Positions 23,543-53,697 of a stretch of DNA of 64,000 nucleotides are shown one piece after another. Within the stretch, counting starts at the first letter, position 1; each line of letters opens with the position of its first letter. The stretch is from Meloidogyne chitwoodi (taxonomy: Eukaryota > Nematoda > Chromadorea > Rhabditida > Meloidogynidae). The position numbers and the translations under genes were made by a program. Under the pieces are notes generated by a model. It had not been told where the DNA came from. It did not search any database and saw only the letters and a program-made list of their open reading frames with translations. The stretch is taken from the NCBI GenBank assembly GCA_015183035.1, contig JACZZP010000007.1, positions 1,116,001-1,180,000 on the forward strand, read 5' to 3'.

Positions 23543-26896
<3,354 letters not shown>

Positions 26897-28344
26897 CTAA
26901 ATTGAAAATAAAAAGGTTAGAAGAATTTGGCTAATTTTCAAAATAGACTAAAAATCATGAGTACAAGTATTATAAAAACGAAAGACATAATCAAAAACAT
27001 TAAAATCGTTCAAATTTTAATGTTTGAAATATTTAATATGCTTTAGAAATAAAAATAATTATTTTATATTAATTTGTGTTGATTTGACTGAATTTGAAAA
27101 AATATTTAAATAATAATGAAGGAATTAATAATAATATTGAATTAATTTTTGGATTAGGAAAAAACATTTTATAATAATGATTTTTGAATAAAATTGATAA
27201 AAATTGTTTGTACAGTATTTTTTCGATTAATTACCCCACCTATATTAATTAACCCCTCCAACGATAGGTTGAAACATTAATTACCAAGAGTAACTATTCG
27301 AAGAAATACGGTATTTTAAAATAAAAAATAGATATATGTGGGATGGTTGAGTGGATAACAACCGTGTCGATCCCTTACAATTTTGCAATTTTCTGGGATG
27401 TGTTCGGTCTCTTTACGAAATTTTTATTTTAATTATACAAAATTAATTAAATTATTAATTTAAAAAATAAAAGTGATATACAAAATGAAAAGCTGGTATC
27501 TTTTATAAGCACATTTATAAATTATTTAATGCAATAAAAATTAATGAATAATGACATAAAAAGCATGATTTAAAGATCATTAAAAAAGAATCCTGTGTAA
27601 AGAATTAAAAAATGGAAAACTTGATTTTTTCAAAGTGATTTTAAGGGTATTCTAAATAAAAGAGTAAGGTAATAAAAATAAAATTCAATTTTTTAATGTT
27701 GTTTTGTATAGCAATTAAATTTTGTCAATGAAAAAAAAACATGCTTTTATTGTATAAATATGTAAGTTTTATTATTATGGCAGTCTTACTTGATAAAAAA
27801 AACAATTTTTTGTTATTGAGCATCAATAAATCATTTTTTCTGAAAAATAAAATCTAGTTTTATGACATGTATGATGCATATAAAAGCCTAAAGTTTTCAT
27901 CTAAAAATATCATTCCTCATATTTTCTTAAGTTTTATTCATTAAGCATTTAATTGTTATATTTTAAACTCCTTAATATATAATTATTTTGTGGGTATACT
28001 TCATAATATATCCTCTTTTTTATTAAGCATTTAATTTTTACATTTTGAACCTCTTATAAAAAATAATTACTTCTCTAAATATCCTTTTTTTATCTATCCC
28101 TTTTTTATTAATTATTTAAACTTTTAAACCTCAATAATAAATTATTATTTCTGTAATAATAAAAAACAAGTTTTATGAATCTATTGTCAATATAAAACCT
28201 TAAAGACTTTAAACTAAAAAATATCATTCACCTTAGGATTTACTAAATTTTTTACTATACTGCCATCCTTTTTTTTAATTTAACAAAAATAATTTTCTAG
28301 GATTATTCACATTTTTTAAAAAGAAAAAATGAAAGCAACTAAAA
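26897..28344. other. AT-rich spacer in Maverick B
   Basis: No supported gene. A tRNA-like A-box/B-box pair near 27343-27412 was examined and not accepted. Otherwise low complexity. Confidence 0.5.
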
Positions 28345-28953
28345 ATGGCAAGTTAAATTAAATTATTAAAAAAATTAATATTTTTCATTAGTAGACTCCA
28401 TTGATGAAACAAATAATTTTGAAGAGGATAAAGGTTTGTTAGATTTTAAATATTAAATTATTTTTTTAGGAAAAAAAACCGAGGATAAACATGAAAATAT
28501 TGACGATATTGAGGGTAAGAATTCTTTAGAAACTATTTAAATATAGAAAATTAGAGTCCTTAACTAATGGCGAACTTCAAGCTATAAGAGAATTTATTAT
28601 GGAGCAAAAGAATAAAAAAGATAATGCGAGACGAAGATCACTAACTAAATCTAATTCAAGCTCTGGGTCCTGCAAAACACCTGTACCTAAGAAGACCAAA
28701 CCATCAAATGCTAAAAATTTAAATAAAAAAAATTGCCTTGAATACTCTAATAAGGTACAATAAAATTATTTAAATAATAGAAAATAACAATTTCATTTTT
28801 AAGCAAGAAAAAGATGAGGATTATGAGCTTCACCAGGCGATTATGGAGTATGTTGAAGAGGATAACTCTGACGAGCCAGAGTCAGATGATATCATAGATC
28901 TTGGTGAAGATGAAGCGGACTATAAGAAGCTTAAACTTGAGAGTAGTTACTAA
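28345..28953 (+). CDS. Unknown acidic/basic low-complexity protein of Maverick B, five exons
   Basis: The second of two nearby ATGs (28345) lets exon 1 (seven bases) join in frame to the following exons at about 28393, 28470, 28554 and 28804, through small GT/AG introns; the last exon ends in TAA at 28951. The protein has an acidic N-terminus, a basic Ser/Lys-rich middle (DNARRRSLTKSNSSSGS), and a strongly acidic end (EEDNSDEPESDD). No conserved domain was recognised. It opens a run of intron-containing plus-strand genes leading to the polymerase. Nuclear localisation is plausible. Function unknown. Confidence 0.5.
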
Positions 28954-29096
28954 TTTAATTAAATTTTTAAAAAAATTTGTAATAATTAAGTAATTATGAC
29001 TACAAATTACTTTATTTTTCTTTTATCCTAGACTCATAATAAATTTTTTAAGAAGAGAGATCAAAATTGATTCCGGAAGGTTTGCTTAAACGTTCG

Positions 29097-29767
29097 ATGG
29101 TGCTTAAAGAAAAACGTTCTGGACTTTTCTTTTTTCAATGTGCCAAATGTAAAGATAATCACAAAAGAAGAGAAAGTTTTATGTTTAAATCAGGACATTC
29201 AAGGATTTCCATTTTAACTTTGGAACTTTGTCCAGAGTGTTTAGATAAGAATATACAGCTAGGAACTTTTTATGCGGGTCATTTGGGTTAGTGGTTATTT
29301 TCTAAAATAAAAATAAATTTTTATTATAGTTAATTCAAGAAAAGAATATGTTTCTGGAGCACAAGCTTCTAATTTTGAGAATGGTATGAATACAAATTTT
29401 AATTTTATTATTTAATTAAGTTGCGGGAGTTCTTCACTTTCGCCGTGGTGAGAGCAATAGTAGTGACAAAAGTTTTCTATACTTAACCAAGTATTGCTGG
29501 ATCTTGCATCAAGTAATTAATAAATATTTCCATTACAATGATTTAATTTTTTAGTGTTCGCACTGTTATCAATTACAAAAGTCAATGGCTAGCGATCTTT
29601 TCTTGCAAAAGATCGGTGACAAATACGAACTAAATTTTTTAGTAAGATAAAATTTAATCAATTTATTATATATCTTTATTTAGGTGTGTAATGTATGTGC
29701 AACTGCTAACAAGGAATATCAACAAAAAACATTCAAAATGTTTTGCAATTTTGCAAATAAATATTAA
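29097..29767 (+). CDS. Zinc-binding Maverick B protein, five exons
   Basis: Exons begin at about 29097, 29330, 29420, 29555 and 29684 and join in frame to a TAA at 29765-29767. Cysteine pairs are spread along the protein: FQCAKCKDN, LELCPECLDKNI, QCSHCYQL and VCNVCATAN, giving up to four zinc-coordinating pairs. The first two pairs match the C-terminal half of the Maverick A protein at 15914-16342. A TTTTTTAAG acceptor just upstream at about 29050 could be a spliced-leader site. An upstream non-ATG extension of the frame exists but is not needed. Likely a nuclear zinc protein of the element; exact role unknown. Confidence 0.6.
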
Positions 29768-29953
29768 ATTAGATTCTAAATCTTTTTTAAAAAATTAAAA
29801 AAATGCATTTAGTTCGCATAATTTCAATTAATCTGTGTTGAAAAAATAATTTTAATATTTGTTTATTTCACATAATGTTAAAAATCAAATCATATTTTTA
29901 ATTGTTAACAACTATTATTTTTTAACAGAATTTTTAGATTTTTTTTTGAAAAA

Positions 29954-30572
29954 ATGGAACAACACGTTTCTGAAAAAGAAGCAATGGAAATTCTTAAAGG
30001 ATCGGTTAGCCGATTTTCACGTGAATTGTTTATGCACGATAATTTGGTTTACGACGACAAACAACTAAAAAATAATTTGTATAGGGCTTTTATTCGCTAC
30101 CACGAGAAAAAATATCCGTTAATTTCAACAGGCAGAATACATGAATATCTACTTAAAGAGAGGCATGCATTATCAAGAAATGTATGATTTATTAATTTCA
30201 AAATATCTTAAAAAATTTTTTCTTCAAAAATATTGTTAGTTAGGTTTTCTAAATTTTAAAAAATTCAGTCAATCGCTCAAATAGTCAAAGATGAATTGTA
30301 CTTGGATCTTCATAATCCTCTGAGCAAATTTTGGGACCAAATTGATTTAGAATTTGCAATTAACCTTTGTTATTTTGATAAGGACCTTCAACAACTGCTT
30401 ATACCTAAGGAAAGTGAAGGTAAATAAATCAGATCTATAATTAAACTTCTATTTAGCAGCAATTATGAAGGATGTCTCAACTCAAACTGAAGCTCTAACG
30501 ATAAAAGATGAATTGGAAGTAATTGAGGAAGAATCTAACCATGTTATGAATGAGGAAGAATCAAATGTCTAA
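29954..30572 (+). CDS. Unknown Maverick B protein, three exons
   Basis: Exon 1 starts at the ATG at 29954 (MEQHVSEKEAMEILKGSVSR) and ends near 30180. Exon 2 starts after TTCAG near 30269, exon 3 near 30457. All junctions are in frame and the stop is TAA at 30570. The protein is mostly predicted helical with an acidic C-terminus (IEEESNHVMNEEES). I recognise no domain. It lies immediately upstream of the polymerase gene on the same strand, with about 125 bp between them. A role in early expression or replication is only a guess from position. Confidence 0.5.
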
Positions 30573-30697
30573 AAATTTTCTGAACAATTAAAAAATTGTT
30601 GAATAAAATTTTAAATAATAATTGTTTTTTATTTTATAATGTTATATATAGCAAATATTTTGTTCTTTAATCCTTAAATATTATTTCATTATTTTAG

Positions 30698-33600
30698 ATG
30701 AGTTATTCAAGAAAATTTGGTCAGCATTCAATAAAACACTTCTACAAACAACATACAACAGAAAATATTAAAAGTCCAAGATTCAAGATTGGCGTATTCA
30801 GGTTAAAAATAAAGTTGACCAAACAATTTCTTTTCAGGTCAATTTTCACAGTACGAAATGTCGAAGATGCTCCAGAAGGTAGTGATCAGCTATTGGAGGC
30901 ATTGATTGATCATTTTATTGCCCGGGCGGACAGAATAGCAGGCTCTAAATCTGAAAAATGTTCTATTATAATAAGAAGCGAGGTCCTTGAGAAACCGATC
31001 CAGATCCCTTACAGAGGCATGGCGCAAAATACTCCTCAAGTTGTAATGGAGCAATTTGACTCTGTGGAGCAAAGTGGAAAAAGAATGGGGAGACCTTCTC
31101 TCTATAGCCAACCAATCCACGTAGAAGTATCTTTTGTTTTTTCTTTTAAAAATTGAAGCTTTTAAGATAGTAATGGGTCCTTCATATGATGAGGCAATTG
31201 AATTAATACAAAAAGGGAAAGGAGGAGGAGGTAGAAAAAAACGTCAAATTGTTCATGGTGTCGATTTAAACAATCTTATTCAGGTTTATTCATTTTTTTA
31301 AAATAGTACAGAAAATAAAGGTGAACAACGATGACTTGGAAGGATTTGCAAAAAATCATTGCCTTTTGCTAGCTGTACAATTGTCAATTCTTTATATTAA
31401 TTTGATCAAAACAACATCAGAATGCCATAAATTTAATAAGATTATACGCGGAAAGGGGGCTACTTATAAAAGGCACAGATCAATATTAATCATTGATATG
31501 CTGGCACAAATGAGAAAATATGGAATAAGATATCCTTTAAAGTTGCCTCATTATACTGTAGAAGAACATGTTCCTTTAATACAAAAACTTCTCAATGAAC
31601 GCTTTCCTGGACAATACAGGATTTCTGTCTTCGGGGAAGATTTGCAAAGGCGTCCAATTTGGAAATGTCCAGATCGAGCAAAGTATGATATAAGTCTATA
31701 TTTGAAAGATGGTCATTACTATGGAATTAGAAAACTTAATTCATTTTTCGGCAGCCATACTTATTATTGCCTTGATTGTGAAGTTACATACCATAAAAAA
31801 ATAAATCATCGTCTAACATGTACAGCAAAGTGCCCACGTTGTTGTGGAATGGGAGCGGACTTTCCATGCAAAGAAATTAAAGGATTTTTTCTAAATTGTT
31901 CACAATGTTATAATTTGTTCAGAAATCCAGAGTGTTACGATAGGCATATAAAAAAAGGAATTTGTCAAATTTTTAAGAGGTTATTGTAAAATTTTGGTTT
32001 TAATTTTAAATTTTAGATGCGAAGAATGTGGTCAAATATACCGAAATAAAAAAAATGAAGATTCAGTAAATGATCATGTCTGTTTTATTCACTTCTGTTC
32101 ACTTTGTAAATCATGGCATAAACGTGAAGAGCCCTGCTACGTACAACCAATAGTTCCAAAGCAAATTAAAAAGAATTATCTTATGGTTAAAAATTAAAAA
32201 ATTCCTTCTTTAAGAAATATTTTTAGGTTGTATTTGATTTCGAGTGTGAACTTTTATCTCCTTCTAAAAATCCTGCTGAGTGGAATCAACTTGAAAAAAA
32301 TAAAGATGATTTTCCAGATGATGATAATTATCAATTTCATCACGTGAATTGTGTTTCGGTAATTTTTAATATTTTTTAAAATAAATAATTATAATTAGGC
32401 ATTGATCTGCTGCTCAATATGTATGAATAACGATCAATGGAAAAACGAAAATCAATTTGAATGTACAATATGCGGTCCTGGACTATCAAGAATGCAAAGT
32501 TGGACAGGTGCTAAGTATGTAAACCCACTTCGAGATTTTCTCAGTTGGTTAATTATCGGGTTGGGAAGAGAGAGAACAGGGCGTACTTATGCAATTTCTC
32601 ATTATGGAGGGTTTGTTTGAAAGTATAAACTTTTTATTTAATTTTAGGCGTTATGATATGCATTTGCTTTTGGGTGAACTCATCAAACATTTTGGATTTG
32701 AACCAAATATCACAAGAACAGGAAACAAACTTTATGAAATTCTTTTGAAAAAAAAAACAGGATTTTGTCCATATATTTCATTTCGAGATTCTTTTAATTG
32801 GATGATGCTTAAATTAGAACAATTGCCAAAGGCTTTAGGTCTTGATATTGATGAAGGAGGAAAATCATTTTTTCCACATGGATGGAATTATAACAAAAAC
32901 ATGAAAATATGTCTTGATGAACTTCCTGATAAAAAGTATTATTACCCAGAATCAATGAGTAAAGAGAGGAGGGAAGCGTTTGATTTATGGTACAAAATAA
33001 ATAAGAAAACCTCATTTTGCCTCGAACAACAAATAGTAGAATACTGTGAACATGATGTAAGGATTCTTGCACACGCGCTTGTGAAACTACAAAAGCTTTT
33101 CTTTGAACTAGCTACAGAACCATCTAAAAAAGATGATGTACTAGTATCGTCGATGACTTTGGCAAGTGCTTGTCTTCGTCATTTTTGTATGTAAATATTA
33201 TTTTTAATAATTACAATTTAGGCATTAATTACTTGAAACCAAATCAAATTGGCATAATTCCTGATAATGGTTATCACAGAGATACAAATCAGTCAGCAAT
33301 TGCATTAAAATTCCTTCACTGGCTTGAGCAAAAGACATGTCGTTATATTCAACACAGAGATAAATCTGAAGGGGAACATAGAATTAGAGTTTCAAATGGT
33401 ACTGTTTTAAGACTTGATGGCTATGTAAAAGGAAGAGATGGAACTGGAAAATATGCTCTAGAGTTCCTAGGTTGCGCTTGGCATGGACATAAATGGTTTA
33501 TAATATTTAAATCTTGTAAAATAATATTTTAGCCTATATCGTCCTCATGAAACCTGTCTAAATGGCAAAACTTCTTTGTATAATAGAGACAAGTTGAAAG

Positions 33601-35516
33601 AACGTATTAAATTATTGAAGGAAGTAGGATTATTTCCAATAATATTTTGGGAGTGCAATGTACTTAGAGCTTTGGAATCTGATCCAGAAATGGCTCTTTT
33701 TTTTGCCGAATTACCAGATATTGGACCCTTATACCCAAGAGATGCTTTTCATGGTTGAGAATTTAATTATTATTGTATTTTATAAATTTAGGCGGAAGAA
33801 CCGGTCCATTAGCGTTAAAATGTAATGTTGAAGGCGATTTAGAAAAAGAATATGAAATTTCGTGTTTTGATGTTGTCAGTTTATATCCTGCTGTTAATTT
33901 TTATGCTTTCTATCCGATTGGTTAATATTTATATTTAAATTAATTTAAATAATATTAGGTCATCCAAGTGTTTTGGATCTTAATCGTGATATAACATGGA
34001 CAAAACCAGAAGACTTAAAACCTTATCGAGGGATTTTTAAATTATTTATAATTCCTCCGGATGATTTATATTTGCCTGTTATTCCGGAGCGTATATATGG
34101 AAAATTAGTAAGTTTAAATTAACTTTTTTTTTAATATTTTATAGATATTTCATCTTTGTCATCAATGTGCAATAGAAATGGAGCCGGGTATTGCAAAATG
34201 CAAAGAAAATAAATATAGTAGAAAAAATGGTCATACTTGGTGTCAGCATAATGATCAACAACGTGGATTCGTTAGCACAATATGTTCAGTAGAACTCGAG
34301 CTTGCGCTGAGCAAAGGATACAGAGCTACAAAAGTATTTAGTATATATCATTGGGATGAATGGTCTAACACCTTACTAAGACCTTATGTACAGGACATGA
34401 TGCGTTTAAAAATAGAGGTTAATATTGTTATTTGTGTAAAAAATTTTTATATAGGCAAGCGGTTGGCCAAGTAGTGTTCTTGCTCCTGAAAATCCAAAAT
34501 TGGAACAAAAATTAAAAATGGAATTTATTGAACGAAACCAGAGAGAATATGGTATTCAACTTGAGTCTTTAAGAATTGAAAAGAATGATGGATTGCGCTA
34601 TTTAGCTAAAACTTGCAATAATTCTATGTAAGAAAATGTTAAATATTTATTCATTATTTTCAGGTGGGGAAGATGGGCATTACGGTGTAATTTAACTCAG
34701 GACTGTATTACAAGCTCTCCTGTTAAACTACATACCGTCCTCAATGATCCAAAATTGGAAATCGGAGCTGTTGAAATGTTGTCTCCAAATCTTTTTGCTG
34801 TACCTTTTCGCAACAGAAAAGAATTTGTTCGACCACACGAAAAATACAATATTGTAATAGCACTTATTACTACTGCAACAGCTAGGGTGATGCTTTATGA
34901 CTATATGGAACGAATTGTAAAAGACAAAAGATGTAAACTTCTCTACACTGACACAGATAGCTGCTTTTACGTTCATAAACGTAATATGCTTCCACCTTTT
35001 TGTGTTGGAGACATGCTTGGAATGATGGCTCGAGAATATGAAGAGTGGTCTATTATTGCATTTTTCACTGGAGGATGCAAACAGGTGTACCAATAAAAAT
35101 TTTTATCAATTTTTTATTTATTAGTATGCGATGAAAATGAAACATAAGGAAAGTGGAGAAATTAAATATATTGTCAAGTGTCGCGGTTTTTGGGAAAAAG
35201 TTGACTCGCCTTTGGACTTTAACCAATTCAAGGTTACATATTTTTTAAGCGAGTTAAAAACCTTTTTTTAAGAAAATGGTGGAATCATATGGGGATAATC
35301 AAGAACCAGTTATACTAGAGAGAACACATTTTCGACCGAGCTGGCGTCATGGGGAAGTTACAAGTCGATCACAAAAAAGGTATTTTTTAAATATTTTTTA
35401 AATAATGATATTTAAGACGTTATGCTCCAATTTATGATAAGGGACTGGTAGATGCAAATTTTGATTGTTACCCATATGGTTACAGAGGAGAACCGATATC
35501 TGATCCGACGAAATAA
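30698..35516 (+). CDS. Protein-primed family B DNA polymerase of Maverick B, multi-exon and apparently intact
   Basis: About 17 exons with 35-60-bp introns run from the ATG at 30698 (directly after TTATTTTAG) to the TAA at 35514. Motifs appear in order: zinc pairs (YYCLDCEVTYHKK, CPRCCGMG, CEECGQIY), ExoI VFDFECEL, ExoII SHYGG/RYDMHLLLGEL split by an intron, ExoIII YCEHDVRIL, an endonuclease-like insert LRLDGYVKGRD...ALEFLGCAWHGH, motif A CFDVVSLYPAVN, motif B AKTCNNSM/WGRWALR across an intron, and motif C LLYTDTDSCF. No stop or frameshift was noticed. The Maverick A homologue is intronless in the same region. It presumably replicates the element using a terminal protein at the inverted repeats. 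Exact splice sites are by eye. Confidence 0.88.
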
Positions 35517-35631
35517 TTTTTATTTGAATAAATTTTTATTTGAATTCTTTTTTATTTTTTAATTTGTTTTTAAATCATATATATATATTTTAAAATTATT
35601 TAATAATTTTTTACATTTTAGTTAAGGCAAT

Positions 35632-36295
35632 ATGATCAGTGACATGGGTGATAAATCATATTTTTTAAAATATCAATTATAAATTTCAGAAATTACTACT
35701 CGTATGCTTGAGCGCCTTCAGCTTGAACATGAAGCAAAGTGTATTCCTCCAGAGGAAATAATAGGAGAACATAATCAAACAATATTTGTGTTTCATAATC
35801 AAAGATGTGGATTTGATAATCGATTTAAAACAACTTTTACAATACTAAGCCGCAAATTTAGTTCTATTGAGCAATTTTACATCTGGCAAAAGGCACGCTT
35901 TTTTGGAGACATTGAAATTGCTTTTGAAGTGCTATCTATGGATAATCCAATTGCAATTCGTAGAATTGGAAAACGTATTCGCAACTATAAGCAAGAAGAA
36001 TGGAATGCTGTACGCAACAAGGCAAATATTTTTATTTTTTAAAAATTTTTTATATCTTTAGATAATGTATACGGGATTATGGGCTAAATTTACACAAAAT
36101 AATCAATTGTTCAATCAATTGCGTGCGACTGGAAATGGACTTATTTCTCAGCTTTCTGCTTCAGAAACGTATTGGAGTAGTGGTGTAAGTCCATTTAGTC
36201 CATGCTTAAAGAATCCGAGTCAATGGGGAGGCGAAAATTATCTTGGACGATTATTGATGGAATTAAGAAGTGAAATGAATAGAAGTATTTATTAA
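35632..36295 (+). CDS. NADAR-family protein, three exons
   Basis: Exon 1 (35632-35647), exon 2 (35690-36021) and exon 3 (36062-36295) join in frame to 193 residues. The second intron is GC-AG. The protein spans a whole NADAR (YbiA/DUF1768) domain: FSSIEQFYIWQKARFFGD, the MDNPIAIRRIGKRI helix, EEWNAVRNK, the LWAKFTQNNQLFNQL helix, TGNGLISQLSASETYWSSGV and ENYLGRLLMELRSEM. The conserved glutamate of the SSxEQ motif is present; the usual aspartate before YW appears as glutamate. Family members include N-glycosidases of riboflavin intermediates and enzymes that remove ADP-ribose from guanine bases. The activity here cannot be fixed from sequence. It ends three bases before the convergent TBP gene. 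Confidence 0.85.
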
Positions 36296-36298
36296 TTT

Positions 36299-36909
36299 TT
36301 ATTTCACAAATGTTAATATAGTATCGTAAATTTTATGTTGAACGTAGTAAATTTCTTTTTCTGAGCGCGCACCTGTTATTATACACTTTCCTGTTGTGAA
36401 TACTATAACAACAGCACGTGACTCTTTCATTCTTAGACACATTCCTGGGAAAAATTCAGGGTTGTATGATATATGTTTTGCGAGCCATTCTGGTCGTACA
36501 ATTCTTAGTGAATCATATAGAGCTAAAAAGTTTTAAATAAGTTAATATTAAAAAATATACCTGGTAAATTTAAAGATCCATGAAAAGAAAAAGATGCAAC
36601 CACGTTTTGTATTCTAAAATCATGCATATTTATGGGCGAAAATGTTCCGTCGGATATAATTTTTACAAAGTGTTTTATTGAAACCTCAGAGTCTCTGACT
36701 GATTTTGTTCCGACACAGACAATTCTTCCGTTTGAGAATATTAATGCTGTAGCCCGAATTGGTTCTTTAATTTTGATTATAAGTGCAGAAAACCGATTTG
36801 GTGTATATTTAGAATTTTTAATATGCGATGAAAGACTATAAAGGTCTAGCTTTTTATCTAAAATCTTCCCAGTAGAAACTACATTTTGAATAATAGCTTT
36901 AGCAAACAT
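36299..36909 (-). CDS. TATA-binding protein (TBP) encoded by Maverick B
   Basis: Exon 1 (36909-36561) and exon 2 (36522-36299) join in frame across a 38-bp GT/AG intron to give 190 residues, the length of the TBP core. Both pseudo-symmetric repeats are present. Repeat 1 has IIQNVVSTGKILDKKLDL, YTPNRFSALIIKIKEP and ALIFSNGRIVCVG. Repeat 2 has DFRIQNVVASFSF, YNPEFFPGMCLRM, VVIVFTTGKCIITG and an EIY helix. All four DNA-intercalating phenylalanine positions and both QN asparagines are kept. The long N-terminal tail of many TBPs is absent. No stop or frameshift was seen. It converges on NADAR and diverges from the packaging ATPase, so it lies between element genes and is cargo, not flanking host sequence. 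It probably directs transcription of element genes. Confidence 0.9.
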
Positions 36910-36954
36910 CTAAAAAATATTTTTATATAAAAAATTATTACAAATAATTTAAAA

Positions 36955-37557
36955 ATGTTCAAAGCGCCCTTTACTATGGTTATATCAGGAGCCACAGGAA
37001 GCGGCAAAACCCAGTGGCTATTACGTTTTCTTAAAAATACGGACCAACTTGTCGACCCTCCACCATTGAAGACTTTATATAGTTTTGGAGAAATGAATGA
37101 AACAGTTTTCAAACTAAAGGAAATGGGTATCACCACATATAATGGGGTACCTGAAACAGAACTAATTAAACAGCATCAGCTTTTAATTTTGGATGACTTG
37201 ATGCTTAATATTCCTAGTCAATTTTTAGATTTATTGTTTACTCGTGGGTCGCATAATTGGGGTGTAAGTGTAATTTTTGTCACACAAAGCTTATACGGTA
37301 AGGATATAAAGACAGCGCGTGCAAATGCTCATTATATTCTTTTAACTAAAAATCCTCAAGGATTATTGCAAGTGCGTACACTCGGGTCTCAGCTTTTTCC
37401 AAAAATGCTTAATTATTTTTTAGAGGCATATAGAGATGCTACTGCAGAAAAATTTTCTTATTTGTTAATTAACATGCATCCGAATGCTGACGAAAATTTT
37501 CGGTTATCTACAAAAATATTTCCTGGAGAAAAAACTACTATATATTTGCCACTATAA
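36955..37557 (+). CDS. FtsK/HerA-type DNA-packaging ATPase
   Basis: A single-exon frame of 200 residues. Walker A is GATGSGKT (residues 12-19), Walker B LLILDDLM (about 78-85), and an FVTQSLY segment (about 107) occupies the sensor position. Size and motifs fit the Maverick ATPase that drives genome packaging into the capsid in adenovirus-like fashion. It is the first of a run of intronless plus-strand genes and diverges from TBP with about 45 bp between the starts, which includes a TATATAA-like stretch. No defects were noticed. Confidence 0.9.
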   Translation: MFKAPFTMVISGATGSGKTQWLLRFLKNTDQLVDPPPLKTLYSFGEMNETVFKLKEMGITTYNGVPETELIKQHQLLILDDLMLNIPSQFLDLLFTRGSHNWGVSVIFVTQSLYGKDIKTARANAHYILLTKNPQGLLQVRTLGSQLFPKMLNYFLEAYRDATAEKFSYLLINMHPNADENFRLSTKIFPGEKTTIYLPL

Positions 37558-37565
37558 TATATAAG
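37558..37565 (+). promoter_or_regulatory. TATATAAG box
   Basis: TATATAAG immediately after the ATPase stop, 33 bp before the next ATG at 37591. Confidence 0.55.
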
Positions 37566-37590
37566 CGTTCAAAAATATTTCATATTTAAA

Positions 37591-37947
37591 ATGCATGCGT
37601 ATAACTATAGTCCATACGTTAAAGAAAATTTTGAATTTCTCCAACGTTTAGCAAAAACATCCTCCGATAAAAAGAAAAACGCGTTGATATTATCGGCTAA
37701 TGCTGATCAGATTTTAGCAATTGTTGAAATTTGTGCTAATATCTTAAAACATAATTTCACACTAAGTCGAAGGCAGCGAAGAAAATTAGTTCAGTTTGCA
37801 GATTACTATAGGTCTATTGCCAGAACACGTACTGAAAAAAGCGCACGCAATCGTATTCAAAAAGGAGGAAGCGCAGCTTTGGCAGCTATACTTATACCTG
37901 TTTTAGGCGCATTAGCAGAGCATATTATTCATAAATTCACACAATAA
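37591..37947 (+). CDS. Conserved small Maverick protein
   Basis: An intronless frame of 118 residues. It has a helical N-terminal half with an NADQILAIVEICANILKHNF segment, a very basic centre LSRRQRRKLVQFADYYRSIA, and a hydrophobic, glycine-containing C-terminus GGSAALAAILIPVLGALAEH. Basic-then-hydrophobic small proteins like this are usual between the ATPase and integrase of Mavericks and have been compared with adenovirus core or membrane-active proteins. I regard that comparison as unproven. Its stop overlaps the next start by one base (ATGA-type junction at 37947). Confidence 0.6.
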   Translation: MHAYNYSPYVKENFEFLQRLAKTSSDKKKNALILSANADQILAIVEICANILKHNFTLSRRQRRKLVQFADYYRSIARTRTEKSARNRIQKGGSAALAAILIPVLGALAEHIIHKFTQ

Positions 37948-38828
37948 TGAAGCATACAAAGAAAATGATAATGGTGCCTGAGGCCGAATATGTTACACTT
38001 TTAAATATGATCAAAGGTGGGGATTTTTTACAAACAGAAAAGGCAAAAACTGATTTAGACATAAAACGAACATTAGATGATCCTAAATTAACCGAGGATG
38101 TACGGGCAAAAAAGTATAACTTGCTATACAAAAAAAGAAGACAATTAAAAGAAAAATTAGAAAATCGACCACAAAAGGTAATTATAGAAGAAATAAAAAC
38201 AAATTCTGAGGCGGCTCCGTATTTAAATGTAGGCACAAATAAATCGAGTTTAATTGTTGATAAAGGTGAACCAAAGCCTGATCCTCAACCTACATCAGAA
38301 ACAAACCTTCGAACTCCTAAAATAAAAAGATCAGCTCCTTTCAAAGGAATTATAGCAAAGAAATTTTCAGATGAGATTGAAAATTATGTCAAAGATCATT
38401 CAAAAAAATTTAAAATTCATGAGGACGGGAGTTTTGAAACATATGTAAAAGGAAGACGTGTAAACAATAGTAACTTTAATCATGTACTTGAATACATAAC
38501 TGGAGATAGAACTTCACCTCCAAAGGGATTTAAATTTCTATTTAGTCGTCTTGCTAAGGATCCCTTAGTTATGGATTTTATTCGTAAAACACGTGGAGAC
38601 AGCAGTACAGAAAAAAGTTCTGAAAGTAAAGAGGAGAGTTCTGGAAGTTCAGAGGAAAGTTCTGGAAGTAAAGAGGAAAGTTCTGGAAGTAAAGAAGAGA
38701 GTTCTGGAACGCAGTCAGGAACCGGAAAAAAGGGGAAAAGAGTACTTGTAAGGATCCCAACTATAAATTCACCTGGGTTTGTTCGAAGAAAAAATAAATT
38801 TATGCCACAAATATGGGAAAAGCTATAG
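37947..38828 (+). CDS. Conserved Maverick protein upstream of integrase, with Ser/Glu repeat
   Basis: An intronless frame of 293 residues: a basic helical N-terminal half, then a conserved block with NSNFNHVLEYITGD, PPKGFKFLFSRLAKDPLVM, an in-frame Ser/Glu repeat (4.5 copies of SSGSKEE-like, 38616-38710), and a C-terminus ending FMPQIWEKL. The conserved block and the ending recur in C (before FKPSLWKK at 51481) and in A (partial gene at 63889-64000). In all three elements the gene overlaps the integrase start, here by 16 bp. Function unknown; likely a virion or assembly protein. Confidence 0.6.
   Translation: MKHTKKMIMVPEAEYVTLLNMIKGGDFLQTEKAKTDLDIKRTLDDPKLTEDVRAKKYNLLYKKRRQLKEKLENRPQKVIIEEIKTNSEAAPYLNVGTNKSSLIVDKGEPKPDPQPTSETNLRTPKIKRSAPFKGIIAKKFSDEIENYVKDHSKKFKIHEDGSFETYVKGRRVNNSNFNHVLEYITGDRTSPPKGFKFLFSRLAKDPLVMDFIRKTRGDSSTEKSSESKEESSGSSEESSGSKEESSGSKEESSGTQSGTGKKGKRVLVRIPTINSPGFVRRKNKFMPQIWEKL
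38616..38710 (+). repeat. 21-bp in-frame coding minisatellite
   Basis: About 4.5 copies of AGTTCTGGAAGTAAAGAGGA(A/G), encoding a seven-residue Ser/Glu unit inside the gene at 37947-38828. Confidence 0.9.
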
Positions 38829-39907
38829 ACAACTTATTAGAGAAAATATACTATTCTCTCAATTCCTCTGCTTCCTATTCTGGAATAAATCGTGTCTATG
38901 AAGAAGCGCGAAAGAAAAATCCAAAAATAAATAGGAGGGATGTTGTTGATTTTCTTCTAAAGCAGAGGGTTTATACGATGCATCGTCCTGCAAGAAAAAG
39001 ATTTGAAAGATTAGTAACGCGACCAAGCGGCCTACATACAGATTGGCAAGCAGATTTGGCAATTTTTGATCAGTTAGCAAAATACAATGATGGATTCAGG
39101 TACCTTTTAGTATGCATTGATGTTCTCAGTCGAAAGATTTTTGCTGTACCTGTAAAAACTAAGAAATCTGAGGATATGATTGAAGCATTTGAAAAGATTT
39201 TCAAAATTTCGAAAGGAATCTTGCCCCACAAAATATATACAGATCGTGGCTTAGAATTTGAAGCTAAGAAAATGCATGAATATTTTAAAACAAAGGATAT
39301 CGATAAACGTGTAGTTTATAGTCCAGATGTACATGCTTCAATGGCTGAAAGGGCAAATCGAACCATTAAGGAAAGATTATACCGATACTTTAGTGAAAAA
39401 AATACACAAAGATGGATAGAAGCTGTGCAGAAGATTGTACAAGGAATAAATTCTAGTATTAATCGCATTACAGGTGTGACTCCGAATTCTTTTACATTTA
39501 AGAATGCAAGGAATATTTTTGAAAGACTATATAAGGATCCCAAAACTCCACTTAAAAGTTCATCAATACTCGGACGAGGACAAATTGTTCGAATATCTAA
39601 AGAAAAAGGTAAATTTGAAAAAGGATATTTGCCAAATTATACTGACGAATTATTTCGCATCTATATAGTAAACGACTCACAACACCCTATAACATATCGT
39701 TTAGAAGATTTAGAAGGAAATTCAATTAAGGGGGTATTTTATAGGGAAGAATTAGTTCCCACATCTGAGGATACCACACATAGAATTGCAGAAATTTTAA
39801 AAACACGAATTACAAGTTCAGGTATAAAACAACATTTTGTGCGTTGGATTGGCTATACAGATATTCATAACAGTTGGATTAACGATAACGATATAGTTAG
39901 ACGTTAA
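38813..39907 (+). CDS. Retroviral-like integrase of Maverick B
   Basis: An intronless frame of 364 residues. The DDE catalytic triad is readable as D81 (HTDWQADLAIF), D144 (YTDRGLEF) and E179 (MAERANRTIKERLYRYF). The C-terminus carries a chromodomain-like module, RIAEILKTRITSSGIKQHF then VRWIGYTDIHNSW, as in Maverick and chromovirus integrases. It joins element ends to target DNA, producing 6-bp duplications. It overlaps the preceding gene by 16 bp and ends three bases before the next ATG. Homologues: 51469-52596 (C) and 62822-63916 (A). It looks intact. Confidence 0.93.
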   Translation: MGKAIDNLLEKIYYSLNSSASYSGINRVYEEARKKNPKINRRDVVDFLLKQRVYTMHRPARKRFERLVTRPSGLHTDWQADLAIFDQLAKYNDGFRYLLVCIDVLSRKIFAVPVKTKKSEDMIEAFEKIFKISKGILPHKIYTDRGLEFEAKKMHEYFKTKDIDKRVVYSPDVHASMAERANRTIKERLYRYFSEKNTQRWIEAVQKIVQGINSSINRITGVTPNSFTFKNARNIFERLYKDPKTPLKSSSILGRGQIVRISKEKGKFEKGYLPNYTDELFRIYIVNDSQHPITYRLEDLEGNSIKGVFYREELVPTSEDTTHRIAEILKTRITSSGIKQHFVRWIGYTDIHNSWINDNDIVRR

Positions 39908-39909
39908 TA

Positions 39910-42900
39910 ATGGATTCCTTCTATGTAATTTTGCCATCAAATACTAACAGTGTTGATGGAAATACTACATCAAAGTTCACAGTTCGTATGCCTGATACTC
40001 TAGAACTGGACTCAAGCTGGACAGTTGCGCTTTCTAACATCATCTATCCATACTCTTTCTCATTACTTGGTGGTTCAGATGAACAAGAATCGATAACAAT
40101 ATTTCGCCGATATGGCGAAGAACTTTTACCTATTCGTATCGAGGTACCTGATTTATCTTTTTCATCTGAAGAGGCGTTAGAAAAAGCTATAAATGCTATT
40201 TTACATGATTCATGGGTAAAAGAAATAGAAAGGGAACGCAAGGAAAAGGATGAGAAACTAGAAAAATATTTATTATTTGGCGAAGTTAGAAATAAACGAG
40301 ATGTTGAGTTAGAATCTATCAAAGAACATTTTGTTACATATGGTTATTTTTACTTGTCGATAGAGGAAGAAAAAGATTTTATAAAACTTTTATCAGAAAA
40401 AGAAGTAGCAATTGACCCTAAAGTTTTACCTTTATCCAAAGAGGAATCAGCATCTAGTGGAAAAAATTTTAAAATAATACCTCCACAAAAAGAAAAGAAT
40501 TTTTATATTATGGTATTAAGTGAATTTATCCAAGCTCAATTGAAACTTTTGCAAATGCCTTTTTCAGAACAACTTGATAAAAATAACTATTTCGATATGC
40601 CAAAAGATACGTCTTATAATTTTATAAGATTTTTGGGCAAAAAAGGTATAAGATTACCCCGAATAAGCCCTTCCCCTTATTCTGCGGATGGTCTAAAAAG
40701 GGTTCGATTTTATCCTAACAATGATCAAAAAGAAAAGGTCCGACAGGCGGTCGACGAATTTATGCTTCCTCCAGAGTCTCAAACACGAAAACCTGAATTA
40801 CAAAGCGAAGAACCTGTTGAAGTACCTAATCATATAGAGGAACCTAAAGTTGTTGAATTAAATACTCATATCGAGGAACATAAAGTTGTTGAAGTTCCTA
40901 CTCATATCGAAGAACAGCAACCTGGGAATCAACAAGAAGATCATGATGATTCTAAAATTGATGAGTCTTTAATTGATTACTCTATAGAATCCATACAAAA
41001 ATTTGAAAAGGAGGGATATATAGATTTGCCGAAGAAAATTGCATATAAATTTATAAAATTTTTAAATGAAAAAATTGAAGGTGCACAACTTCCGAAAGTG
41101 CAGAATGTTCCTGAATCGTCATTAGTTCGTTTAAAACCACAAGCTGATCAAAATGAACTTATTTTGAATTCTTTTAAAACTTTTGCTTCAAAAAGTCAAC
41201 AAGAAAATGCTGAATCAGTTAAACCTTCCATCGAAACAAAAGATATTATTCCTCCTTTAACAATGATAACTGAAGAGTCTGTCATATTACCAAAGAAAGA
41301 TATTACTCCACCAACTAAAACTGATGATGCTATACCTGAAAAATTAGATAAAAAAGAAGATAACCATGAAGCTGATAAACCAGAAGTATCTAACGAAGGT
41401 GTAACTATTGAAGTTGAGAATTTATTCGCTTTGCGTGAAAAAGTAGAAATTAATGAGCAAGATAAGCATGAAGAAACATTATCTAAAGAAGAGACTTCTC
41501 AAGGCGCGTCACAAACAGAAAAACTTTCAACTATTTCTGAAATACCTTCTAATTCTGAAATCATGGACGATTCAGTTCAAGAGGAAAAAATTCAAAAAGA
41601 AAACGAAAAGATTGATAGAACGCCTCTTGATGGAAAAATAACATCTCTTTATCATGTAGATATTCCTGATAAACAACCCATCTTAACTGAGGAGCAAAAG
41701 AACTTGATTACTGTGGCTGTTCTTGCTGCTAAAAATTCTTGGAGAGAGAGTGTAGATTTAGCGACGAAATCTCAAGAAAATATGGAACAAGCCGAAGATT
41801 TGTGGTGGAAAGCTCGCTTTAAATATTCAGCTAATGATATGCAAATAACTATAAAGAAAACAGGAAAAGTTGTAAATTTGAGAAAAACACCAGAACATAT
41901 TGTTCCTTGGGTCCGCGCACAGGTAAGATTATTAACTAGTCGCAAAATAAATATCGATGATTGGACTCAGGAATGTTTAGAACTCGCTAAAAGAGCTTCA
42001 GTTGCTCACCGTGATGCAGAAACGGCTGAATTGCGGAGAGATGTTTTTGAAGCAAGAAAAGCCGCGGATCGTGCAAAAGCAGCGTTAAATAAAGTTAAGG
42101 AAGCTGCCAAGCAGGTTGAAGAATTATTTACAGGGCATAAAAATCTTGCACTAGAAATTATTAATAAAGTTGATGAGGCTTTTAATAATCAAAATGAGCA
42201 AAACATAAAATCTCACCATGAATTTAGCCTTCCAATAACTGATGAAGAAGATGATTTTGAGCCATGGGCTCCAGATGAAATTATTATTGAATCTAAAGTT
42301 AAACCTAGTGAAATACATGAAAAATCACAATCATTTCCTCTAACTATTATTGAAGAAGAAAATAACGAGCCTTGGACATCACCACCGTCTTCTAAAGAAC
42401 AAAACTTTCAAACAATAATTGAAGACGAAGAAAAGCCAGCCCTTGAATTACCTAAAGCAGAAGCACTTGTAGCGAAAGAAGAACCATCGTTTTGGAGTAA
42501 AATATTTGGAGGCAGTTCAGAAACAAAAGAATATCAAACTAAACAACCATCTAATGAACCAAGAGCAGAAGCCCTCATTGCCGAACATCATTCAACAAAT
42601 GATTCAAAAAAATTGCATTATGCTAAATATGCATATCCGTCTGAATATAAAAAAATGCTTTTGGACTTTTCTAATTTACAATTAGCCGATCCTCGTTATG
42701 AATGGGTCTCTTTTCATTATGATAAGTTGCATCATCGTTTCTGGGTTAGCTTAGAAGGAAATGTACAATACATTCAATTAAGCCGTCAACTAGCCTATAC
42801 ATTGGGCTTCGATTCAGAAAAACTCCATAATGGTCATGTCGCAAAGTATATGCCAGACCTCTCTGGAGGTGTGCGTCAATTTTTAGTTTATGCACCGCGA

Positions 42901-43137
42901 CTTGTTGAAAATAGTATAATTGGAAATGTTACCGCTCCATTATTACGTGTTGTAAATGTTAATGGAAAACCAGGAGATTGTATTTCCGAGGTATATATGA
43001 CCGAGCATCATCATCGTTTATTAGGAAAACGTCATCCTGATATAACAATTGAAATACGAAACTTAACTGGAAATTTAGTAAAATTTCATTGGGGAAATTG
43101 TATAGTAACACTTCATTTTCAACGCTCATTGTTTTAA
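39910..43137 (+). CDS. Large minor-capsid-type (penton candidate) protein of Maverick B
   Basis: An intronless frame of 1,075 residues. The N-terminal 110 residues (FYVILPSNTNSVDGNTTS, WTVALSNIIYPYSF) and C-terminal 170 residues (YTLGFDSEKL, KYMPDLSGGVRQFLVYAPRL, PLLRVVNVNGK) match the 349-residue homologue in C. Between them is an insertion of roughly 700 residues. It contains a duplicated module (about 227-285 and 370-425, each with LPK/MPK...Y.FI.FL followed by a DQ.E motif), Pro/Glu repeats (HIEEHKVVEVPTHIEE) and an Ala/Glu-rich helical section. The conserved parts are characteristic of a Maverick virion protein often proposed as the minor capsid or penton protein. The insertion may form a spike or fibre; that is inference. 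No defects seen. Confidence 0.7.
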   Translation: MDSFYVILPSNTNSVDGNTTSKFTVRMPDTLELDSSWTVALSNIIYPYSFSLLGGSDEQESITIFRRYGEELLPIRIEVPDLSFSSEEALEKAINAILHDSWVKEIERERKEKDEKLEKYLLFGEVRNKRDVELESIKEHFVTYGYFYLSIEEEKDFIKLLSEKEVAIDPKVLPLSKEESASSGKNFKIIPPQKEKNFYIMVLSEFIQAQLKLLQMPFSEQLDKNNYFDMPKDTSYNFIRFLGKKGIRLPRISPSPYSADGLKRVRFYPNNDQKEKVRQAVDEFMLPPESQTRKPELQSEEPVEVPNHIEEPKVVELNTHIEEHKVVEVPTHIEEQQPGNQQEDHDDSKIDESLIDYSIESIQKFEKEGYIDLPKKIAYKFIKFLNEKIEGAQLPKVQNVPESSLVRLKPQADQNELILNSFKTFASKSQQENAESVKPSIETKDIIPPLTMITEESVILPKKDITPPTKTDDAIPEKLDKKEDNHEADKPEVSNEGVTIEVENLFALREKVEINEQDKHEETLSKEETSQGASQTEKLSTISEIPSNSEIMDDSVQEEKIQKENEKIDRTPLDGKITSLYHVDIPDKQPILTEEQKNLITVAVLAAKNSWRESVDLATKSQENMEQAEDLWWKARFKYSANDMQITIKKTGKVVNLRKTPEHIVPWVRAQVRLLTSRKINIDDWTQECLELAKRASVAHRDAETAELRRDVFEARKAADRAKAALNKVKEAAKQVEELFTGHKNLALEIINKVDEAFNNQNEQNIKSHHEFSLPITDEEDDFEPWAPDEIIIESKVKPSEIHEKSQSFPLTIIEEENNEPWTSPPSSKEQNFQTIIEDEEKPALELPKAEALVAKEEPSFWSKIFGGSSETKEYQTKQPSNEPRAEALIAEHHSTNDSKKLHYAKYAYPSEYKKMLLDFSNLQLADPRYEWVSFHYDKLHHRFWVSLEGNVQYIQLSRQLAYTLGFDSEKLHNGHVAKYMPDLSGGVRQFLVYAPRLVENSIIGNVTAPLLRVVNVNGKPGDCISEVYMTEHHHRLLGKRHPDITIEIRNLTGNLVKFHWGNCIVTLHFQRSLF

Positions 43138-43140
43138 ATT

Positions 43141-43542
43141 ATGACACACATAGCCATTGATTTGGATAAAATTGACTGGGGACCCTTTTTAAATGCCCAA
43201 GAGGGTAGTGGCATGCTAGAAGGAAACCGATATTTTCAAGGAACAAGGTACCAAAGGGGTTTTGGTGTACTTGGTGCTGTAGGTCGTTTTATTATGCCTA
43301 TTGTCAAAAATTTAGCTACAAGTGCAGGTCAGGAGGCTGTAACTGCAGGAAAAAATATACTTGAGGATGTTTCACAGGGTCGTTCTGTTAGTGAAGCTTT
43401 GAAACAACACGGCACTGAAGGTCTTCAAAAGGTAAGTAAAAAACTTCAACAATGTGGAAAAGGTAGAAGAAAAGCTAAAATAGTCGAAAAGAACAGTCGT
43501 CGCCGTCGCTATAGAGATCAACTTAGTTTAGAAGGACTCTAA
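43141..43542 (+). CDS. Small basic virion-type protein of Maverick B
   Basis: A 133-residue intronless frame between the minor-capsid-type and major capsid genes. It has YQRGFGVLGAVGRFIMPIVK, an amphipathic helix EAVTAGKNILEDVSQG, a second helix, and a very basic end (SRRRRYRDQLSLEGL). Homologues in the same position are 54184-54744 (C; YQRGYGIGSILRSFMRYLIP) and 59793-60344 (A; FQRGYGRQVGG...RFLLPYARRAG). The glycine-rich start, amphipathic helix and basic tail recall adenovirus pVI/pX-type core or membrane-lytic proteins, but that link is not shown. Confidence 0.65.
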   Translation: MTHIAIDLDKIDWGPFLNAQEGSGMLEGNRYFQGTRYQRGFGVLGAVGRFIMPIVKNLATSAGQEAVTAGKNILEDVSQGRSVSEALKQHGTEGLQKVSKKLQQCGKGRRKAKIVEKNSRRRRYRDQLSLEGL

Positions 43543-43543
43543 G

Positions 43544-43551
43544 TATATAAG
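43544..43551 (+). promoter_or_regulatory. TATATAAG box before the major capsid gene
   Basis: TATATAAG starts one base after the preceding stop codon and 38 bp before the capsid ATG at 43582. Confidence 0.6.
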
Positions 43552-43581
43552 TTCTCGCATTGGCTAAATTTCCAAACAAAA

Positions 43582-44970
43582 ATGGCAACGATCAAAAAAA
43601 TTGATAAAGATAGTTCTGAGGGTGTTGATAATCGTCTAACTTTCTTTACTATTCCTTCAACTAATGTAGGTATACAACGTTCGGCTTTCAAAGAACTACT
43701 ACCTCTTAATGCTCTAAATCAATCTGCAGGTCCATTTATTTTTCGTTATTTTGGAGATTCACTTTATCTTGATTTGAGCAAGACTTATTTTAGTTTAGTT
43801 TTATCACTTGAAAGAAAAAATAAAGATGGTGAATGGGTTCCAATTACAAACGGTACAACAGAAGCTTTTGTGGGCGATAAGCATACAAGCGTTGCACAAT
43901 ATTTAGGTTTAACATGGATTCGTCGTCTTACTCTTTCTATTAATGGAGTTCAGTGCTATGATTCTGGCATTCATTATTCATATAGATGTATATTTTTACA
44001 TGAACTTGGAGCTAATAGAGAAATTAGTAAAGGTCTTTATGAGGCAGGCCTTTATTATAAAGATGCCGTGGACAAGAATGATATTAATGGTTCTGGATTT
44101 AAGGCTCGTGCATCACGCTTTGCAAATGGACAGTTGTGTAGGTTATTCTCACATTTAGATTATGATATGGCACGGCAAAATCAACTTTTAATTCCGAATA
44201 GTGATGTTATATGGACGATATACAAAAATACAGATGAATTTCTTATTCACACTCCCAAATATTTGCCAAAAGCAGGAGCGGAATATGTTAGTAACACAAA
44301 CACTTATCGTCTCCGTCTTCATGATATGAGAATTTTTGTTAAGCAGGTCGATTTAAGTATGTCTTTAAATAATGCTATTGCGCGACATTTGGAACAAACA
44401 CCCGCAAAATATGCTTACAGAAAAATTGAAATTAGAAGTGTATTTCTTGGAAAAGGTCGACAAGAAATTACACATCCAGCATTTACAAGTACATGTCCAC
44501 GACGTTTGATCATATGCTTTGTAAGTTCTTCAGCATATACAGGAAATACTGAGTTGTCACCCTTCACATTTGAAAATGCTAATTTACGTTCAATTTCGGC
44601 TGAATTTGGCGGATTTCAATTTCCTGCTGTTCCGTACGATCTCGATTTTGCAAATGATAGCTTTGTTCGTGCTTATGTTGACATGTATATCGGTATGGAC
44701 CTAGACGCATGGCCAAATTCAGATCCTAGAACTATTAGTATAGGTATGAACGAATTTTCTAAATCTTCATGCTTTTTTGTTATTCCGATGAATTCGACTC
44801 TTGAAGACACTAACGGCCTTGAACTCATTAGACAAGGAACAACAACAGTGCGTTGCCTTTTCAATCAACCTGTAAAGGACGAAGGATATGAAATGATAAT
44901 AATGGGTGAGTTCGATTCAATACTGTCCATAAATGCAGACCGTGTGTTAAGTACTGATGGATCTGTCTAA
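43582..44970 (+). CDS. Double jelly-roll major capsid protein of Maverick B
   Basis: A 462-residue intronless frame. It shares its whole length with 54746-56071 (C) and 58449-59786 (A). Common landmarks are an N-terminal FFTIPSTNVGIQRS, FGDSLYLDLSKTYF, LTLSINGVQCYDSG, PAKYAYRKIEIRSVFL, CPRRLIICFV, FPAVPYDLDF and a C-terminal LELIRQGTTTVR then GEFDSILSINADR. This layout is that of the Maverick major capsid protein, predicted to form double jelly-roll capsomers as in adenovirus hexon-like lineages. A TATATAAG box precedes it. It looks intact. The next gene's aligned start lies just beyond its stop. Confidence 0.82.
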   Translation: MATIKKIDKDSSEGVDNRLTFFTIPSTNVGIQRSAFKELLPLNALNQSAGPFIFRYFGDSLYLDLSKTYFSLVLSLERKNKDGEWVPITNGTTEAFVGDKHTSVAQYLGLTWIRRLTLSINGVQCYDSGIHYSYRCIFLHELGANREISKGLYEAGLYYKDAVDKNDINGSGFKARASRFANGQLCRLFSHLDYDMARQNQLLIPNSDVIWTIYKNTDEFLIHTPKYLPKAGAEYVSNTNTYRLRLHDMRIFVKQVDLSMSLNNAIARHLEQTPAKYAYRKIEIRSVFLGKGRQEITHPAFTSTCPRRLIICFVSSSAYTGNTELSPFTFENANLRSISAEFGGFQFPAVPYDLDFANDSFVRAYVDMYIGMDLDAWPNSDPRTISIGMNEFSKSSCFFVIPMNSTLEDTNGLELIRQGTTTVRCLFNQPVKDEGYEMIIMGEFDSILSINADRVLSTDGSV

Positions 44971-44971
44971 G

Positions 44972-45424
44972 ATGAATTCAATCCAAATTGAAACTATTTT
45001 AAATAGGTATAAACCTTTAAAAAATAAATTTATTGGTGTATATTCGTCAAATAATATTCCAGATGTATTTAATAAACCTTTTTGTTTCATTGCAAATACA
45101 ATGAGAAAAGGAACCGTCGGAGAACATTGGATTGCGTGTTATTCTGATAATTCAAAAACATTGGAATATTTTGACTCTTTTGCTGAAGAACCTAATTGTG
45201 ACATGCGTCTATCAATGCTAAATCGTTTTTCTATAATAAAACAAAATAGATTTTCATTACAGTCTCCACTTTCAGATACATGTGGGCATTATTGTATATG
45301 TTTCCTCATATTACGTTCAAAGACTGATTTTGCATCTTCTCTTCGAAAATTGCATTCTATTCCATCAGAGAGTCGTGATGCAGTGTTACGACGCTTTATC
45401 CAGCGTTTATCTTTGAGTATATAA
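44972..45424 (+). CDS. Adenain-like cysteine protease of Maverick B
   Basis: The frame opens at 44957, but alignment with the A and C proteins favours the ATG at 44972 (MNSIQIETIL). Catalytic residues of the Ulp1/adenovirus-protease fold are in place: H52 (GEHWIACY), D68 (EYFDSF), Q97 (LQSPL) and C104 (DTCGHYCICF). Maverick proteases are thought to mature capsid proteins after assembly. It follows the major capsid gene directly. No defects were seen. Confidence 0.88.
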   Translation: MNSIQIETILNRYKPLKNKFIGVYSSNNIPDVFNKPFCFIANTMRKGTVGEHWIACYSDNSKTLEYFDSFAEEPNCDMRLSMLNRFSIIKQNRFSLQSPLSDTCGHYCICFLILRSKTDFASSLRKLHSIPSESRDAVLRRFIQRLSLSI

Positions 45425-45427
45425 AAG
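45418..45427 (+). promoter_or_regulatory. TATATAAAAG box
   Basis: Overlaps the end of the protease gene, 36 bp before the ATG at 45454. Confidence 0.55.
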
Positions 45428-45453
45428 AATTCAATTAAAATAAATTAACTACA

Positions 45454-45768: not shown

Positions 45769-45769
45769 G
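45762..45769 (+). promoter_or_regulatory. TATATAAG box before the PAZ-like gene
   Basis: TATATAAG overlaps the stop of the membrane-protein gene and lies 44 bp before the ATG at 45806. Confidence 0.55.
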
Positions 45770-45805
45770 TAGAGGGTTGAGATACCAATTTAATTTGAGG
45801 CTAAC

Positions 45806-46306: not shown

Positions 46307-46318
46307 TTTTGAAAAAAC

Positions 46319-53691: not shown

Positions 53692-53697
53692 ATTTTA

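Follow-up and report, generated by a model that had tools for sequence, protein, structure and literature searches.

A TATA-binding protein gene carried by Mavericks of a nematode, and its possible part in their late gene expression

What does a gene for the TATA-binding protein (TBP), the factor that marks for the cell where the reading of genes begins, do inside a virus-like transposon? The question is raised by positions 36,299 to 36,909 of a 64,000-nucleotide stretch of the Meloidogyne chitwoodi genome (GCA_015183035.1, contig JACZZP010000007.1, positions 1,116,001 to 1,180,000), here called the window. A first-pass annotation, made from the letters alone, placed a complete TBP of 190 residues there, between a NADAR gene and the packaging ATPase of a Maverick (Maverick B). 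When the gene was modelled again, its coordinates, strand, length, two exons and 38-bp intron all came out the same, and family matches identify both neighbours as described (PF08719, E 1.7e-10, for NADAR; PF04665, E 9.6e-8, for an A32-like packaging ATPase). The gene and the spacer beside it consist of the following parts.

36561..36909, minus strand: TBP exon 1, N-lobe and start of the C-lobe (Pfam PF00352, E 4e-24, and gene model)
36523..36560, minus strand: 38-bp GT-AG intron, phase 1 (gene model), equal in position and phase to an intron of both host TBP genes
36299..36522, minus strand: TBP exon 2, remainder of the C-lobe (PF00352 family match and PDB match), with a stop codon after the last modelled coding triplet
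36910..36954, no strand: 45-bp divergent spacer between TBP and ATPase; the acceptor-like TTTTTTAG abuts the TBP ATG, and TATATAAA lies at -31 of the ATPase ATG

Spliced in frame, the two exons encode a complete, two-lobed protein of 190 amino acids; PF00352 is matched at both exons, and the PDB match is full-length. Eukaryotic TBPs in PDB are matched with E 3.5e-32 over residues 7-188 and archaeal ones more poorly (1.5e-28 to 1e-19). A chance reading frame was rejected on the Pfam and PDB matches (E 4e-24 and 3.5e-32). The window TBP shares 36% identity with the host TBP on contig C10, 39% with a host paralogue on C29 and with human TBP, and 40% with that of Arabidopsis; against the C10 protein, the element TBPs reach 36-39%. 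Seven canonical Maverick copies stood as representatives in the comparisons of identity and residues and in the TBP tree. All four intercalating phenylalanines are kept in Maverick B, as the annotation had said, and both core asparagines are present; in the alignment (human numbering) the core DNA contacts of the element TBP are mostly retained. Among the seven B-clade sequences compared, Thr222 is changed to Val in all and Val311 to Ile in five, Maverick B carrying both changes, and in the C12 clade (described below) the fourth phenylalanine is Tyr and Val169 is Thr. Of the glutamate pair that contacts TFIIB (human 284 and 286, given as C.L3.2 and C.L3.4 in the available part of PMC7221094), each clade has altered one, with N/E in the B clade and E/T in C12. 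The Maverick B protein also has about eight additional C-lobe residues before the SYNPEFFPG stretch, in an alignment that used five of the 16 canonical copies as representatives.

The element that houses this gene is a bona fide Maverick. It shares with other Mavericks/Polintons the PolB, rve integrase, A32-like ATPase, adenovirus-type protease, capsid-gene block, terminal inverted repeats (TIRs) and 6-bp target site duplication (TSD), and differs from them in its additional TBP and NADAR genes; PolB is split by introns, and TBP lies on the opposite strand to its neighbours.

21402..47180, plus strand: Maverick B, with 35-nt perfect TIRs and TSD CAGGTA at 21396-21401 and 47181-47186, inserted in Maverick C
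30698..35093, plus strand: PolB of B, intron-split; a splice-acceptor-like TTTTAG abuts its ATG
35683..36042, plus strand: first part of the NADAR-domain ORF (PF08719, E 1.7e-10), which by eye continues after an apparent intron to ~36294
36955..37557, plus strand: A32-like packaging ATPase (PF04665, E 9.6e-8, above cut-off)
38813..39907, plus strand: rve integrase (PF00665, E 2.6e-10), with a weak chromodomain match (PF00385, E 0.0088, below cut-off)
43582..44970, plus strand: putative major capsid protein, named through synteny and homology among elements, and free of Pfam matches
44957..45424, plus strand: adenovirus-type protease (PF00770, E 5.2e-5, above cut-off)
21257..56902, no strand: Maverick C, host of B, with TSD TGCATG at 21251-21256 and 56903-56908, inserted in the PolB gene of Maverick A

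The polymerase of B is of the protein-primed type by family match (PF03175, E 5.8e-12, at C28:1148634-1149185, which is window 32634-33185). The empty-site counterpart of B in the other TIR of C matches except for one T fewer in a T-run. Three Mavericks are thus nested over 17538-57407, with B in the terminal repeat of C and C in the PolB gene of A. A search of the genome with the protease family gave no match, but the controls gave none either, and this search is uninformative. Several other features of the window were seen in passing. From the left end of B to its first recognised genes (21402-30000), nearly 9 kb are very AT-rich and hold no ORF of 120 codons, and a long Helitron-type ORF with Helitron_like_N and PIF1 domains lies on the minus strand at 4318-8172. 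PAZ-domain matches, both below cut-off, occur in ORF 45794-46303 of B (E 3e-5) and in 16492-17118 of A (E 2.5e-5), with relatives in the elements L049 and L050 and beside the C12 TBP; judging by these matches, the PAZ-like ORF could possibly encode a small-RNA-binding protein resembling a silencing suppressor.

How common is the gene? A search of the genome with the TBP family gave 46 matches, which were grouped into 22 loci: 16 canonical Maverick copies on 10 contigs, three copies of a diverged Maverick class, and three host loci. All 16 canonical copies have open two-exon frames (12 distinct coding sequences), and all have the intron in the same place, with a length of 37-43 bp. In every one of the 16, TBP is divergent from the ATPase, the start codons being 45 bp to ~1.5 kb apart, and in some TBP-bearing copies other genes are broken or deleted. 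Between subfamilies, dN/dS is 0.12-0.36 with dS often above 1 (Nei-Gojobori, NG86; 11 representatives); within subfamilies there are few changes, the ratio being 1.44 in one pair (6 changes) and 0.57 in another (9 changes). The annotation had suggested selection after capture, and the ratios between subfamilies agree with this for copies within one genome: the Maverick-borne TBP is selectively maintained. It had also named other copies lacking the gene, or carrying only decayed forms, as evidence to the contrary. No decay is seen among the canonical copies, while in the diverged class one copy of three has lost its frame. In one group of subfamilies (L017, L019, L027 and L044), some 150 bp upstream of the TBP ATG, on the side of the ATPase, look strongly conserved by eye, which seems more than a bare promoter needs.

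The diverged class is seen on contig C12, where the minus strand carries an intronless TBP of 209 codons, with PolB on one side and, on the other, an ATPase that shares 45% identity with that of B; this is the copy of the class, C25:1016465 and C3 being left out, whose ATPase flank was looked at. The C12 copy is open, that at C25:1016465 is open with an identical product, and the one on C3 has lost its frame. Over its first 95 residues the C12 integrase is 90% identical to that of Maverick C, which places C, by its integrase, in the clade with the second, diverged TBP; the TBP family search gave no match in C's own sequence. Among 49 PolB loci (merged by eye from 105 family matches), 11 have a TBP within 12 kb. 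Conversely, of the 19 Maverick TBP loci, 12 lie no more than 12 kb from a match to the PolB family and seven do not, although one of these seven (L015) keeps pieces of PolB that are found by BLAST. In an unrooted PolB tree (one 190-residue piece, 12 copies), the four TBP-linked polymerases group together with support 0.975, C12 on a long branch, and the TBP tree agrees weakly with a single acquisition (support 74). The simplest history would be one acquisition of TBP before the two Maverick clades split. A further feature of the PolB loci is that some form facing pairs on opposite strands, ~4.5-7.5 kb apart (C6:111283/117738, C6:134485/138996, C12:2247851/2255399 and C26:1780626/1788153); perhaps these are PolB genes within long inverted repeats, or paired insertions.

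Where did the gene come from? The three host loci offer a comparison.

C10: host TBP, multi-exon, with six core introns by reading, 84% identical to human
C29:1699859-1700972 (L038): host TBP paralogue, 76% identical to host TBP, with an intron at the place of the Maverick intron
C28:50563: TLF-like host locus, so called from a reading of its motif

The Maverick intron is in phase 1 and lies exactly at a phase-1 intron of both host TBPs (IQLE^G / NLP^A), without a nearby gap in the alignment (five of the 16 canonical copies as representatives). With about six host introns and some 520 possible positions, the chance of such a coincidence is estimated at ~1 in 90. Because both position and phase match, the source was most likely a TBP gene of a eukaryote, taken up as DNA with its intron. 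In the TBP tree that the annotation had called for, the Maverick TBPs do cluster, on a long branch outside the four cellular TBPs sampled (support 74), but the tree does not place the donor. Nor can a donor be named from identity, since human, Arabidopsis and host TBPs are about equally close; the intron alone therefore speaks for a host-like donor gene. The proposed capture from a host is supported by this one intron, common to both host TBPs in position and phase. The paralogues on C29 and C28 share the TBP core with the element gene, and C29 the intron place, but their sequences are not Maverick-like.

If the element makes a TBP, what might it bind? Sequences of the form TATATAA(A/G) precede the late units of B, namely those of the ATPase (-31), 37558 (-33), the capsid gene (-38), 45439 (-36), 45794 (-44) and 46291 (-53); overall, such boxes stand 25-53 bp upstream of several late genes. 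Three of the boxes are as follows.

37558..37565, plus strand: TATATAAG box, -33 of ATG 37591; in 5/11 copies examined, absent in 6/11
43544..43551, plus strand: TATATAAG box, -38 of the capsid gene ATG 43582; in 9/9 copies examined
45762..45769, plus strand: TATATAAG box, -44 of ATG 45806 (ORF 45794); in 6/6 copies examined

Between -80 and -15, such a box is found in six of 13 genes of B, where shuffled sequence gives a mean of 0.285 and none of 1000 shuffles is as high; Maverick A has one in eight genes, and Maverick C none in six. Elsewhere the box is retained at the ATPase in ten of 11 copies (missing in one), at 45439 in 3/3 and at 46291 in 3/3 (one subfamily), although some of the 11 copies examined are identical or nearly so and these are not independent events. 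The flanking sequence differs between subfamilies while several late boxes hold a nearly constant place. The genes of B that lack a gap of their own (37935, integrase, 39901, 43138 and protease) have no TATATAA(A/G) box, as expected if they are transcribed jointly with their neighbours. Counted across the entire window, TATATAAG shows no clear enrichment (10 against 5.8 expected, with 9 of 100 shuffles as high) and GTATATAAG occurs three times against 0.70 expected; these counts are not decisive, and position and conservation were therefore used.

TATA boxes as such are not a private possession of TBP-bearing elements. When TATA boxes of any kind are counted, Mavericks without TBP (A, L049 and L050) have them at 13 of 24 genes and B at seven of 11 (P 0.72; TBP and PolB being left out for B, and 60503, 61211 and integrase for A, which contributes seven genes). 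Maverick C, with boxes at two of six genes, stands outside the P values. The notion that TATA boxes are exclusive to TBP-bearing Mavericks was rejected, as TBP-less ones carry them as often, and host TBP may therefore suffice. The TBP-less elements lean to TATAAAA and B to TATATAA (P 0.057). The start codons of PolB and TBP stand directly 3' of a splice-acceptor-like TTTTAG, which would be fitting for host-type processing of early genes.

Together, the maintained gene and the placed boxes suggest that the element TBP directs the element's own gene expression. In our judgement it is somewhat probable that a eukaryotic TBP entered one lineage of nematode Mavericks, has stayed there as one of the core genes, and serves to build a private late initiation complex with host TFIIB and Pol II. 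The simplest case would be a single entry, at a place between PolB and the packaging ATPase. The intron-bearing early genes (PolB, NADAR and TBP) would be expressed by ordinary host transcription and splicing, perhaps with spliced-leader (SL) trans-splicing. (The nematode SL1 leader has seven exact copies in the genome, and the pattern read backwards has none.) The element TBP would then bind the TATATAA(A/G) boxes that directly precede the intron-free late units (ATPase; 37558 onward; capsid and protease; 45439; 45794) and recruit host TFIIB and Pol II, and the outcome would be a private late pre-initiation complex with a looser tie to the regulation of host TBP. We infer the early and late timing, the DNA binding and the recruitment of partners. 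Host TFIIB is proposed as the partner because no TFIIB-like gene is linked to the elements: PF00382 has only three matches in the genome, all on C2, although a very divergent TFIIB could escape such a search. No RNA polymerase family was matched among the scanned ORFs, a set from which 37558, 43138, 45439 and the PolB pieces of B are excluded. A more demanding version, which we offer tentatively, holds that a private TBP, taken from a eukaryote before the clades split, runs the late genes without a viral TFIIB or RNA polymerase, and that coevolution has led its TBP (Thr222Val, E284N) and the TATATAAG boxes away from the TBP-TATA pair of the host.

The same protein could instead act mainly against the host, by competing for TFIIB, TFIIA or TAFs and so damping or redirecting host transcription or antiviral and small-RNA responses. 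It diverges faster than other genes, as factors in conflict often do: between subfamilies, identity to the window copy is 53-69% for TBP, 79-90% for the ATPase (over matched pieces) and 67-80% for the integrase. However, NADAR and 37935, neither of them a TBP, show equally fast divergence, so that speed alone says little. The B clade has altered Thr222 and one TFIIB-contact glutamate, and TBP-less Mavericks manage with TATA boxes, both of which would suit an anti-host role, but the largely conserved DNA-binding residues, the purifying selection on the protein and the near-constant place of several late boxes point the other way, and we consider this role unlikely as the main one. Considerably less probable is that TBP serves as a tether between chosen promoters and the integrase or the genome, and in this way steers integration. 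Pol III factors direct the integration of yeast Ty elements, and the rve integrase of B has its weak chromodomain match; the one insertion considered, that of B, is nevertheless in the terminal repeat of another Maverick, with no known promoter, and ARAGORN (bacterial code setting) finds no tRNA gene in the window. A captured TBP carried along without function would fit the small share of PolB loci that are TBP-linked (11 of 49), the few changes within subfamilies with ratios of 1.44 and 0.57 in two pairs, and the broken copy among the three of the diverged class. It is largely refuted, and very improbable, given dN/dS of 0.12-0.36 between subfamilies at high dS, 16 canonical copies without lesion, and the same gene place in two clades; a decayed passenger was rejected on the open canonical frames and the low ratios between subfamilies. 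Finally, misassembly of the host TBP into the element, which the annotation had named as a case that would undo its reading, is refuted, and so is a host gene derived from the element at this place; nothing was found in favour of either, and both have next to no probability, as element TBPs occur in 16 elements on 10 contigs at 36-39% identity to a host TBP that lies at a different locus (C10; six core introns by reading, 84% identical to human). The private late initiation complex is the reading that we retain.

How does this compare with known systems? Nematode Mavericks have reportedly been studied by Widen et al. in 2023. The annotation's author knew of no Maverick or Polinton with a TBP gene, and the literature searched (titles and abstract starts, with nematode Mavericks partly covered) reports none and does not contradict this; in the available parts of three papers on Maverick/Polinton-type elements, terms for TATA or TBP are not mentioned. 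Judging by the excerpts available, a paper on an alga describes sporadic TBP genes in elements that lack PolB, ATPase and double jelly-roll genes, and the other papers with both TBP and element terms concern phycodnaviruses (PMC4602308) and mirusviruses (PMC10132985), besides a review that cites a TBP paper. According to the same kind of excerpts, large dsDNA viruses have TBP-like proteins, mostly together with their own TFIIB (PMC7221094), phycodnaviruses have genes for both TBP and TFIIB (PMC4602308), and mirusviruses have TBP-like proteins (PMC10132985). As far as these excerpts go, such proteins resemble ours in being virus-encoded and two-lobed, with conserved intercalating phenylalanines and altered TFIIB-contact positions; the large viruses mostly add a TFIIB-like partner of their own, whereas the Maverick, with no TFIIB match linked to it, would borrow that of the host. 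Scans of IMG/VR with exon 1 and with the ATPase gave no relative, and one with the TBP alignment gave a single relative (L051), on a 132-kb large-virus contig, where the TBP is flanked by two large ORFs, by our reading RNA polymerase subunits.

For the mechanism, the nearest working analogy may be the late complexes of herpesviruses. In the portions available of PMC12529657 and PMC7498053, KSHV ORF24 is a TBP mimic of late genes in beta- and gammaherpesviruses that works with other viral proteins. The proposed logic is alike, in that a virus-encoded TBP function would redirect host Pol II to late promoters, but ORF24 is described there as a mimic, and by that description it is set apart from the Maverick protein, a genuine TBP homologue.

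For the family itself, TBP offers a marker for one Maverick clade, and as a natural, diverged TBP it offers material for the study of TATA specificity. Mavericks are known mostly as integrated DNA, and the element TBP together with the late-gene TATA boxes would give a concrete and testable early/late switch for their virion genes. The finding suggests that a small virus-like element in an animal, bringing neither an RNA polymerase nor a TFIIB, can make the most central promoter factor its own. If this is true, a Maverick lineage in an animal would have achieved the takeover of host Pol II promoter choice with one protein.
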